A DNA stretch of 64,000 nucleotides from Sandaracinobacteroides saxicola. GTDB taxonomy: Bacteria; Pseudomonadota; Alphaproteobacteria; Sphingomonadales; Sphingomonadaceae. Position numbers and translations under genes: made by a program. The stretch's first letter is position 1. Every line of letters starts with the position of its first letter. Location: assembly GCF_014117445.1 (NCBI RefSeq), contig NZ_CP059851.1, positions 682,001 to 746,000 on the forward strand, in the 5' to 3' direction. The notes under the pieces are model-generated. The model was not told the DNA's origin. It did no database searches and worked only from the letters and a program-made list of their open reading frames with translations. Positions 32,712 through 37,209 of this stretch are shown piece after piece.

Positions 32712-33725
32712 TTATCGTTTGGCCTTGCTGGCGACGCTTTCGGGGAGGTCTTCGCCAAACACGCGCTGGTAATATTCGGCGACCAGGGGGCGTTCGGCTT
32801 CGTCGCAGCGGTTGAGGAAGCTGACGCGGAAGGCGAAGCCGAGGTTGCCGAAAATCGCCGCGTTCTGCGCCCAGGTCAGCACCGTGCGCGGCGACATGAC
32901 GGTGGAGATGTCGCCGGCGATGAAGCCGGCGCGCGTCATGTCCGCCACCTTCACCATGTTGGCGACGGTCTTTTTCCCCGCCTCATTGGCATATTGCGGC
33001 GATTTGGCGAGGATGATCGACGCCTCGGTGGCGGCGGGCAGATAGTTGAGCGTGGTGACGATGCTCCAGCGGTCCATCTGGCCCTGGTTGATCTGCTGCG
33101 TGCCGTGGTAGAGGCCCGAGGTGTCGCCGAGGCCGACGGTGTTGGCGGTGGCGAACAGGCGGAACCAGGGGTTGGGCCGGATGACGCGGTTCTGGTCGAG
33201 CAGGGTCAGCTTGCCCTCGACCTCCAGCACGCGCTGGATCACGAACATCACGTCGGGGCGTCCGGCGTCATATTCGTCGAACACCAGCGCGGTGGGGGTT
33301 TGCAGCGCCCAGGGGAGGAGACCCTCGCGGAACTCCGTCACCTGCTTGCCGTCGCGCAGCACGATGGCGTCCTTCCCCACCAGGTCGATGCGGCTGATGT
33401 GGCTGTCGAGGTTGATGCGGATGCACGGCCAGTTGAGGCGGGCGGCGACCTGTTCGATGTGGGTGGATTTGCCGGTGCCGTGATAGCCCTGCACCATGAC
33501 GCGGCGGTTGTGGGCGAAGCCGGCGAGGATGGCGAGCGTGGTTTCGGGATCGAAGACATAGGCCGGGTCGAGGTCGGGCACGCGCTCGTCGGCGATGCTG
33601 AAGGCGGGAACGGCCATGTCGATGTCGACGCCGAAGGTGGCGCGAGCATCGACGGTGATGTCGGGCGCGGCGAGCGCGGCGGGCGCGTGACGGTCGGTAT
33701 CGGCGGACAGGTTCAGGCTGGTCAT
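32712..33725 (-). CDS. cobS: Aerobic cobaltochelatase subunit CobS (AAA+ ATPase)
   Basis: 337-residue MoxR-type AAA+ ATPase that powers cobalt insertion with CobT and CobN. Walker A is [13 protein letters not shown] (about 80-92), Walker B is [13 protein letters not shown], and the sensor region [18 protein letters not shown] is as in CobS. C-terminal helical domain includes [11 protein letters not shown]. Upstream of it (33726-33812) lies the edge of the AT-rich island. Confidence 0.95.
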
Positions 33726-33812
33726 GGTGGGGGTGGGTTAGGGGGGTGGCGAGTGGTTTGCAACCGCCTCGGCGTCGCGGGCAGGCTGGGGGTTTTGAGG
33801 GGGGATGAAAGT

Positions 33813-35330
33813 CTATGGGGGGGTGCCACGATTCTTTCGCTTGTTATCACGTCCCTCGACAAATAACTCATGAAAGTATAGCAAACCGCGAATAATTATA
33901 GCTATTAGAATGGCTGATCCATATGCCCATTTTGCTTCTTCTTGATGAGATGTACTATAAATGGATAGATATACCTTCTCGATCAAACTGCCGCCGTAAT
34001 AGCATGCTGCTATATAACCGATGACCTCTGCACCATTCTGTAGATTGATTAAGGTGTCAGTTTGGCTGCGATCGAGTGCATTTTCAACAAGATTTGACAA
34101 CTCGTCAATACGCAGCCGCAGCGAATCGTAACGCCTGCCTACCCCGACCATGGCGCGCGCCGATCGGTTGAACCGTCGCGCGAGAAAGTCGCGTAGATTG
34201 AGGTAACCAGGAATGTTGCGGTGGTCAATACGTTCTAGAATGCGCTCCAAGGCTTCGGTCGCGTGTTCCACGGATCGCGCACGATGTGATATACCACCAC
34301 CCACCATTTCGTTAAGAATAGTCAATTTTAATGTGGCGTTCTGGAGATCTGTGATGAACTCCTTATCTCTCAGCTGCTGCTTAATACTTTTGTCATTGGA
34401 GTTCCATTTCTGCACGGCATCCTGCACATCGGAATGGAGGTCGTTAAGGCAATGCTGCAACAATCGGAATTGTGGCAGAGCAAGCATAGTCAAGACGCGT
34501 TGTGTCGAAAAGGCAAACAGGTTTTCAAGTAATCGTCCTCGCTGGAAGGCATTCAGCCCACAATCGATAATGACAGTACGCGTAAATAATGGTCCCACAC
34601 CTCGCTGGTCCATCTCTACGTTTGAGAACAAGACGGCGCGACCTCCCATTACGGATGCCGCTACGAACTCATGATCGCTGCGCTGCGCTGCGGTGGGGCC
34701 ATGGCCAAACATGTGCTGGATCAGCGGCAATGCTAGTTGGCAAACGGTGCTAGCTAGTTGAGGGCGTTGCCGTGCATTGTCTGAGTGGATTGCACGACGC
34801 ATAGATTGTTGGAACTGAGTTGGGCGAGTTTTGGCGTTTATTAGTTCAATCCAGGACGGACCAGGATCGACATCTTCCTTGGCTGGCTTCGGTGCATGCT
34901 CGAACGCATCTGCCCTTTGTTGTGCAGCATAGCGCACGTAAGTGGTCTCGAGCAACCAAAAGCATGGAATGACTACATATGTTGCACCTTGCGCGAAATT
35001 GCCGATGATGATGTCGGACCAAGCTGGAATCGCGCCACCAGCTGGCAAGCCGTCAAACGCCGATGACCAACGGAACTCGACTTTTGCGTTGGATGGCTTT
35101 TCGATGAATTCGCGAATAGCGCGATAAATGCGATCCGCCCCCGGTTCTGGTAGGCCAATGATAGATTGTGGTCGATGGTTTGCAGGGTCACGACGCTCGT
35201 CAATGCCAGTCCAGGTCTGATAGCCGCTGTCATGCCGAATCCACCTAAAGGCTGGTGAAGTATTTGCCGCGTTCGCCCGTTGTCGGTTGGTCGGCGTGCA
35301 AGAACAGACGCCGCATGTTGCTGGCGGCAT
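33813..35330 (-). CDS. Unknown membrane-anchored protein, DUF3422-like in its C-terminal half
   Basis: Up to 505 residues in a stretch clearly AT-richer than all neighbours. I do not recognise the N-terminal 200 residues. From about 220 on the pattern recalls DUF3422 proteins: ASVMGGRAVLFSNVEM, then a long helical part (LENLFAFSTQRVLTMLALPQ, YLNLRDFLARRFNRSARAM), then two hydrophobic segments near the C terminus (GYIAACYYGGSLI and YGSAILIAIIIRGLLYF) that look like membrane helices. The likeness is from memory and moderate. The listed ATG overlaps the preceding gene by 86 bases, and no better ATG exists for over 150 codons. Translation may instead enter by a +1 shift from the upstream frame at 35245-35250. 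Confidence 0.6.
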   Translation of the reverse strand: MPPATCGVCSCTPTNRQRANAANTSPAFRWIRHDSGYQTWTGIDERRDPANHRPQSIIGLPEPGADRIYRAIREFIEKPSNAKVEFRWSSAFDGLPAGGAIPAWSDIIIGNFAQGATYVVIPCFWLLETTYVRYAAQQRADAFEHAPKPAKEDVDPGPSWIELINAKTRPTQFQQSMRRAIHSDNARQRPQLASTVCQLALPLIQHMFGHGPTAAQRSDHEFVAASVMGGRAVLFSNVEMDQRGVGPLFTRTVIIDCGLNAFQRGRLLENLFAFSTQRVLTMLALPQFRLLQHCLNDLHSDVQDAVQKWNSNDKSIKQQLRDKEFITDLQNATLKLTILNEMVGGGISHRARSVEHATEALERILERIDHRNIPGYLNLRDFLARRFNRSARAMVGVGRRYDSLRLRIDELSNLVENALDRSQTDTLINLQNGAEVIGYIAACYYGGSLIEKVYLSIYSTSHQEEAKWAYGSAILIAIIIRGLLYFHELFVEGRDNKRKNRGTPP

Positions 35331-36075
35331 TGCTGCTTCCAGCCCTCAGGCAAGTTAGCAAAACGTCCACATTCTTGGCTTCCACATGCTCGTTCAGAAC
35401 GGCTGCATCACGCCAGTCCAGCCATAGCTTCGTCAGCAGGCGACGTGTTGTCACATAGGGTTCTGAAAAGTCCCAGTGCGTTGTCATCGCGTTGATTACA
35501 CGGTCTTTGCCGCCTTTGAGCGGTGAGGTGCCGGGTTCAAGCTGGTGAATAGCACGCCTCCTCATTTTCACCAACATGTCATATGAAGATTCAGAAAGAA
35601 GGCGTGGTCGAATGGGCCGGATTTCGTTTTTTTCTTCCTTCTCAAAGCCACCGGACTTCGCCTCGCCTGGAGTCATGCGAGGCGCATAGGCCGGCAGCAT
35701 GGAAAAATGACTTGCAAGACAAAATGACTCTAATGGTTCGAATGCTGAAAAATTGAATTCGCTGTGCACGTATGCAGTACCGATAGATAATTGTCGAGGG
35801 CTGTTATCCACATTACGCAGCATTTCATCCTCATCACCAATGCTGGGATGCTCACGCGCAGTCTGTCGCAAAATTGTTTTCCATTTTTGCAGTCGATCAA
35901 ACAACGAAGCTGTATTCAATTCAATACCATGCTCGCGAAAATTGGCTTGCACGTCAGCCCGCAAAGCGCGCAGCTGATCATTAAGGCAGCGACCACCATT
36001 CGTGTTTTCGGACCAAGGTCCATACTGGACGGACTGTAGCATTGGCATGCGCCTTTTCGACTCAACGACATTCAT
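35245..36075 (-). CDS. Unknown protein, first gene of the AT-rich island
   Basis: 276 residues with no family I can name. It starts MNVVESKRRMPML, is soluble-looking, and contains QLRALRADVQANFREHGIEL (helical), a Ser/Phe-rich middle and a basic C-terminal part (KMRRRAIHQLEPGTSPLKGG, THWDFSEPYVTTRRLLTKLW). Base composition matches the following gene and differs sharply from the flanks, so both arrived together. The stop sits in CTT-TAG-G: a one-base forward slip there would continue straight into the next frame and give a single protein of about 750 residues. Whether this is two genes, a frameshifted gene or recoding is open. Confidence 0.6.
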   Translation of the reverse strand: MNVVESKRRMPMLQSVQYGPWSENTNGGRCLNDQLRALRADVQANFREHGIELNTASLFDRLQKWKTILRQTAREHPSIGDEDEMLRNVDNSPRQLSIGTAYVHSEFNFSAFEPLESFCLASHFSMLPAYAPRMTPGEAKSGGFEKEEKNEIRPIRPRLLSESSYDMLVKMRRRAIHQLEPGTSPLKGGKDRVINAMTTHWDFSEPYVTTRRLLTKLWLDWRDAAVLNEHVEAKNVDVLLTCLRAGSSNAASNMRRLFLHADQPTTGERGKYFTSL

Positions 36076-36099: not shown

Positions 36100-37209
36100 C
36101 TAGCGCAGCCTTGGGCAGGGGGGGAGCTGGTTGCGGCGGGGGGCTTTGGTTTCGGATTCGGGGGGTGGGGAGAGGGTGGGGGGCTCGCCGAGGAGGGACT
36201 GGAGGGCGATCGTCACCGGTTTGCGGGTGCGGTTTTCGGAAGGGGCGGGGAGGCCGGCGAAGGCGGCGCGGAGGCTGAGGGGACAGACGGTGGTGACGGT
36301 GCCGGCGAGGCGGAGGGTGGTGACCCCCTCCGTCTCGCTGGGCGAGACACCTCCCCCGCGAGCGGGTGAGGGGCTGGCGGAGACAGTGTCGCTCGCTGCG
36401 CTCGCGCCCACCCCCGCTCGGCTGTCGCCGAGTCGCCCCTCCCGTGAACGGGAGGGGAGTTGCGTGGGGATGGCAGTGGCGGTGAGCGACAGGATTTCGC
36501 CGCTTTTGTCGGCGAGGGTCAGCGAGGTGAGTTCGGCGGTGCCGAGGGCGCGCCAGGCAGTGAAGCTGGTGATCGGCTGGTTCGCGGTGAGGTCCAGGTT
36601 GGCGGCCAGTGTCAGTGGCGCGCCTTCGCCCAGGCGGACGGCGGTGCCCGACAGGACGAGTTGGGCTTGCCGGGGCGGGGTGGGGCCGCGGTTGGTGGGC
36701 GTGGTGGTGGGCGTTTCGCGCAGGTGGGCTTCGAACGCCGCGGCGCGGACGGGGACGGGGAGCAGCGTGGTGGTGAGCTGCGCGTCGCTCCAGACGATGG
36801 ACAGGCGGGCGATGATCGGGCGCGCGGTGCCGGGAACCAGGTGCAGGCTGGCCTGGGCCGCGGGCGCGCGGATGCTGGCCTGCACCAGCGGCAACGCAGG
36901 GATCGCGACGCGGGCCAGCGGGGCGGTCAGGTTGAACACGCTGTGCTCGGGGCGCCAGGGCTGGCGGTTGATGACCGCTTTTTCCGCCTCCGCGCCGGCG
37001 GCGAGGCCGGGGCCGTCGAAGCCGATGCGCGGGCGCTCGACGGTCGCCTCCAGCCGGTAGGGGAAGCCGGCGATGCCGACCGCGGCGCCGGGTTGCAGGC
37101 GGGCGACGTCGGCGGCGAGGGTGTCTGCGTAGCCGCTCCAGACATGATACCAGCCGGCGATGCCGGCGGCCAACGGGATGAGCGTGACCCAGAGCGGGAT
37201 GCGCCTCAT
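36100..37209 (-). CDS. DUF2125 family protein with two in-frame palindromic inserts
   Basis: 369-residue envelope protein. An N-terminal membrane anchor (RRIPLWVTLIPLAAGIAGWY) is followed by DUF2125-type repeats of beta structure (VGIAGFPYRLEATVERPRI, FDGPGLAAGAEAEKAV). Its ATG overlaps the plsC stop by four bases, so it ends a ydcF-plsC-DUF2125 operon. Residues about 250-297 are not family-like: they are encoded by two tandem palindromic elements (36318-36376, 36384-36461) and read as Ser/Arg/Gly-rich peptide (SRSREGRLGDSRAGVG). The C-terminal tail (PPPESETKAPRRNQLPP) is also low in complexity and may be frame drift. Function unknown. Confidence 0.8.
   Translation of the reverse strand: MRRIPLWVTLIPLAAGIAGWYHVWSGYADTLAADVARLQPGAAVGIAGFPYRLEATVERPRIGFDGPGLAAGAEAEKAVINRQPWRPEHSVFNLTAPLARVAIPALPLVQASIRAPAAQASLHLVPGTARPIIARLSIVWSDAQLTTTLLPVPVRAAAFEAHLRETPTTTPTNRGPTPPRQAQLVLSGTAVRLGEGAPLTLAANLDLTANQPITSFTAWRALGTAELTSLTLADKSGEILSLTATAIPTQLPSRSREGRLGDSRAGVGASAASDTVSASPSPARGGGVSPSETEGVTTLRLAGTVTTVCPLSLRAAFAGLPAPSENRTRKPVTIALQSLLGEPPTLSPPPESETKAPRRNQLPPCPRLR
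36318..36376. repeat. Intragenic palindromic element, copy E (in DUF2125 gene)
   Basis: CCCCCTCC followed by the perfect hairpin GTCTCGC-TGG-GCGAGAC, then ACCTCCCCCGC...GGGTGAGGGG. Same CCCCTCCG start and two-hairpin layout as the pdhC copies, over 35 kb away. Confidence 0.82.
36384..36461. repeat. Intragenic palindromic element, copy F (in DUF2125 gene)
   Basis: CCCCCGCTCGGC-TGTC-GCCGAG hairpin followed by the perfect CCCCTCCCGT-GA-ACGGGAGGGG hairpin. It follows copy E directly and is translated in frame. Confidence 0.85.

Follow-up and report, generated by a model that had tools for sequence, protein, structure and literature searches.

A compositionally foreign island between cobS and a DUF2125 gene in Sandaracinobacteroides saxicola probably represents one acquired DUF3422-family gene split by a frame change

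The locus under study lies in the single-contig, 3.36-Mb genome of S. saxicola, within a 64-kb window (the whole stretch of DNA that was analysed, positions 682001-746000), and coordinates given below refer to this window unless a contig or locus is named. Two open reading frames (ORFs) occupy positions 33813-36075, both on the minus strand, as are all genes from 38473 to 32079. ORF1 (35245..36075, -) specifies 276 aa and begins with an ATG located 24 bp past the stop codon of its upstream neighbour, the DUF2125 gene (36100-37209, -). ORF2 (33813..35330, -), 505 aa as listed and showing a coding signal from about residue 29, encodes a divergent DUF3422 protein and is followed downstream by cobS (32712-33725, -). 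The two ORFs overlap by 86 bp (35245..35330, -). A previous sequence-only reading had placed an island between cobS and the DUF2125 operon, and its bounds proved to be exact. The DUF2125 protein obtained no Pfam match in this analysis, and its name is the label given by that reading. As far as they were identified by means of Pfam, the flanking genes are ordinary, and neither defence nor mobility genes were observed among them. Screening for transposon-like ends and flanking direct repeats returned short, chance-like pairs only, and the search for promoters and terminators yielded nothing above chance, with none upstream of ORF1.

Within the DUF2125 gene, a palindrome-rich segment (36321-36475) was found to lie in frame. 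The DUF2125 proteins of four out of five relatives align on either side of this segment, but their alignments leave out the segment itself (query residues ~250-297). Part of it, 33 bp long, has a copy of 94% identity elsewhere in the same genome (L148:12088-12119). The segment has the appearance of a repeat element inserted into the coding region.

The GC content amounts to 49-55% within 33813-36075 vs. about 69% (65-74%) in the flanks, with the drop from 0.65-0.74 down to 0.49-0.55 extending from ~33750 to 36075. Foreign composition is common to both ORFs: GC3 values were 0.53 for ORF1 and 0.50 for ORF2, compared to a mean of 0.873 (sd 0.030, minimum 0.81) for the predicted window genes of more than 150 aa. 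Moreover, a host codon model scored ORF1 at -73 and ORF2 at -222, while predicted host genes ranged from +26 to +659. This contrast is far beyond chance, and the base composition and codon use unlike those of the GC-rich flanks, as described previously, were confirmed by all three measures.

ORF2 passes the Pfam family DUF3422 (PF11902) with 60.5 bits (E 2e-16) at a curated gathering score of 25 bits. The product joined across both ORFs scored 59.9 bits, and ORF1 alone obtained no score. The match comprises the C-terminal two thirds of the family (ORF2 residues 216-479, 33894..34685, -; profile positions 141-405 of 418), leaving the first 140 profile positions unmatched; by means of a profile built from relatives, the alignment was found to reach ORF2 residues 163-479. 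No full-length DUF3422 match was obtained, the N-terminal regions H/E-x-H-A-R-P and E-R-H-T-E-F remaining uncovered. Among positions at least 85% conserved in canonical DUF3422 members, G-R, T-x-R, F-x-x-R-R, Q-x-x-x-E and Y-Y are kept in the C-terminal half of ORF2, whereas those at A-Y and P-A have not been retained. As deduced from hydropathy and alignment, ORF2 ends like the family, with two hydrophobic segments predicted to form a C-terminal two-helix membrane hairpin, followed by a basic tail (33876..34022, -; ORF2 residues ~437-485). What had been described as a membrane-anchored gene with a distant DUF3422 look thus represents a genuine family match.

A canonical DUF3422 gene is present in the same genome (G000:C1:1162018-1163250; reported as 429 aa, 477 bits), neighboured by cytochrome-c-like, pyrG-like and proS-like genes (named by eye). 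ORF2 shares with this paralogue the helical core positions and the C-terminal membrane hairpin. It differs from the DUF3422 members found in showing only ~25% identity to them and, if ORF1 is joined to it, from canonical proteins in carrying ~470 extra residues upstream. No solved structure was matched for DUF3422, and neither this name nor PF11902 is mentioned in the literature searched. A possible likeness to RMND1/DUF155 was unsupported by hhalign.

ORF1 is an orphan. No family match was obtained for it in Pfam, NCBIfam, PADLOC or PHROGs, and no relative was met anywhere searched, in keeping with its previous description as an unrecognised gene. Likewise, comparisons with the N-termini of canonical and long-form DUF3422 proteins by means of HMMER, hhalign and a motif matrix around E-R-H-T-E-F revealed no significant similarity. 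The H-S-E-F motif of ORF1 resembles the invariant H-x-E-F of the family (shuffle p 0.009, for a motif chosen after the fact), and may serve as a lead only.

Long-form DUF3422 proteins exist as intact genes. Two of them, encoded at L005:1156-2976 (-; 606 aa, genome G167) and L061:547-2364 (+; 607 aa, genome G603), are single ORFs featuring an N-terminus of 320-355 aa unmatched by Pfam and, subsequently, the DUF3422 core. They are 28% identical to each other, have H-[SN]-E-Y-F-T in common, occur in a scattered manner and are solitary among ordinary genes, accompanied by no partner ORF. The joined ORF1-ORF2 product has the same layout of a long, Pfam-unmatched N-terminus preceding a DUF3422 core. 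It differs in being divided between two ORFs and in its N-terminus, for which no significant similarity was detected: comparison of ORF1 with a profile of both long forms (hhalign) returned a probability of 0.6%, and architecture is all that is shared.

In order to trace the island in other genomes, both ORFs were searched against several collections, which contain no other genome of the genus. Among 299 family genomes, ORF1 was detected in its own genome only, plus one interrupted, chance-level match, and ORF2 retrieved no close relative, but merely ordinary DUF3422 proteins of 23-28% identity. Close relatives were likewise absent from 385 class, 299 phylum and 198 order genomes, and a search of the 198 order genomes with the fused product was equally without a close match. 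A peptide-pattern search for close relatives covering 84,980 species genomes and viral contigs returned none, and none were present in phages and viral contigs. Matches of ORF1 in plasmids and phages, considered up to E = 10, were chance matches only. Relatives of ORF1 and ORF2 were thus encountered neither together nor apart elsewhere, and a full-length homologue of the joined product in a single frame was not found.

The plasmid matches to ORF2, on replicons of Rhizobium and Burkholderia, were DUF3422 genes of the ordinary type. One of them (L013:5009-7200) is located beside hutI/H/G and a HutD-family gene, another (L011:3573-8355) beside genes for an electron-transfer flavoprotein and a GABA symporter. 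These amino-acid catabolism neighbours are a possible clue to the role of DUF3422.

Concerning the insertion site, ten relatives possess cobS with varied neighbours and without the island, and in five relatives the YdcF-PlsC-DUF2125 operon likewise lacks it, in most cases facing a prephenate-dehydrogenase-like gene in convergent orientation. The island is therefore not a universal feature of this site in Sphingomonadales. The cobS and DUF2125 blocks are adjacent in none of the compared relatives. Since their junction is peculiar to this genome, no clean empty site can be demonstrated: relatives do lack the island, but their flanks are rearranged. Recent acquisition, as proposed before, is supported by the composition, by the absence of close relatives from family and order genomes, and by the absence of the pair from the relatives' cobS and DUF2125 sites.

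The interval between cobS and cobT also differs between genomes. In this genome (29715-32609) it contains a penicillin-amidase gene and a gene for a PEP-CTERM protein, and at L122:8692-9353 and L124:10481-11141 it holds Phd/PIN-like toxin-antitoxin pairs (named by eye). This spot looks variable between relatives.

To evaluate the relation between the two ORFs, a codon model was trained on the island's own unambiguous parts (~720 codons) and applied, cross-validated, in 27-codon windows. Within the overlap, the ORF1 frame scored +1.0 and the ORF2 frame -6.8. True in-frame island windows scored at or above -5.5 in 75 of 75 cases, i.e., all above the overlap's ORF2-frame value. Furthermore, GC2 in the ORF2 frame is 0.78 in the overlap vs. 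0.44 elsewhere in either ORF, and the overlap has a coding look in the ORF1 frame only. The best-fitting point for a switch of the coding frame is located 6-45 nt upstream of the ORF1 stop. The first 27 codons of ORF2 are not coding-like, and codons 29-95 read as coding. The latter stretch has no start of its own, because the next ATG, GTG or TTG in the ORF2 frame after the ATG at 35330 is only met at codon 95. Apart from a single +1 step, both frames are open and decay is not otherwise visible. This step can be taken at CTT TAG G (35244..35250, -), which comprises the last sense codon and the stop of ORF1, and it yields a joined product of 753 aa with KYFTSL before and RWIRHDSG after the junction. 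Structure prediction for this product, performed without an alignment, reached a pLDDT of 36, which is too low for use. Judged from the codon signal, ORF1 and ORF2 probably belong to a single gene read in two frames. Of the two overlapping genes described previously, the same-strand ORFs and their 86-bp overlap stand, but their separateness is doubtful, since the frame-wise signal points to one gene.

The main rival is an acquired operon of two true overlapping genes, namely a soluble orphan (ORF1) and a DUF3422 membrane protein (ORF2) working as a pair. Both ORFs are open, an ATG is available for ORF2 at 35330, and true overlaps account for roughly one in three frame transitions of orphans (PMC3711429). 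The overlap of 86 bp is long, however, the initial 27 codons of ORF2 lack a coding character, and relatives of the two ORFs were met neither jointly nor singly elsewhere. This interpretation is accordingly regarded as tentative and rather doubtful. An accessory anti-phage or contact-dependent module, as favoured by the sequence-only reading, would agree with the foreign composition and the patchy distribution. This proposal was not borne out: no match to PADLOC (PADLOC-DB up to E = 10), PHROGs or NCBIfam was obtained, close relatives are carried by no phage, plasmid or viral contig searched, the Pfam-identified flanks are ordinary, and the family of the defining domain has an ordinary chromosomal member as well. 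Such a module is hence considered extremely unlikely, and nothing was found that would indicate defence.

Alternatively, programmed +1 frameshifting at CTT-TAG-G might produce a truncated soluble protein as well as a full-length anchored DUF3422 protein from one gene. The end of ORF1 resembles the prfB (RF2) site in its CTT codon before the stop, its slippery CTTT tetramer, the last base of which opens the stop codon (35250-35244, -), and the +1 direction of the step (PMC12421855), and CTT accounts for just 1.4% of the island codons. The prfB site also requires a Shine-Dalgarno-like AGGGGG three nt upstream and the weak stop TGAC (PMC12421855). In contrast, the island has the bases TTCACCAGC upstream, which contain no such element, and its stop is TAG followed by G instead of TGA followed by C. 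Moreover, the RNA downstream shows no excess of structure over shuffled sequences (z +0.87), and there is no homologue in which conservation of the site could be displayed. Programmed frameshifting is therefore deemed very unlikely, and its more specific form, in which an acquired long-form DUF3422 gene yields soluble short and full-length anchored forms from one mRNA, marginally more so.

The explanation preferred here, and considered probable, is that the island represents a single gene, acquired horizontally, coding for a divergent DUF3422 family protein of the long form and split by a +1 frame change. ORF1 together with the initial ~200 residues of ORF2 would constitute a large N-terminal cytoplasmic part, followed by the DUF3422 helical core, a two-helix hairpin anchoring the C-terminus in the inner membrane and a basic tail inside the cell. 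A frame change at or just before the ORF1 stop (CTT TAG G) would have divided this gene into the overlapping ORFs. Most likely, this change stems from a recent indel or from an error in the sequence; for orphan singleton frame transitions, ~67% were attributed to indels or sequencing errors and 33% to true overlaps (PMC3711429).

Taking the sequence as read, the locus would specify a soluble orphan fragment, and the full-length anchored protein would arise only if ribosomes shift frame. Because no anchored full-length protein is obtained without such a shift, a broken or mis-sequenced locus is more likely than a working system, which suggests loss of function. Were the true sequence intact, its product would act as a membrane-anchored protein, a paralogue of the canonical DUF3422 protein of this genome.

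Where a compositional island holds two ORFs that look like orphans and share a long overlap out of phase, these results imply that a frame change should be checked before a gene pair is called. In S. saxicola, the candidate for an undescribed two-gene defence system is replaced by a probable split, acquired, long-form paralogue of DUF3422, a family that is widespread in Pseudomonadota.
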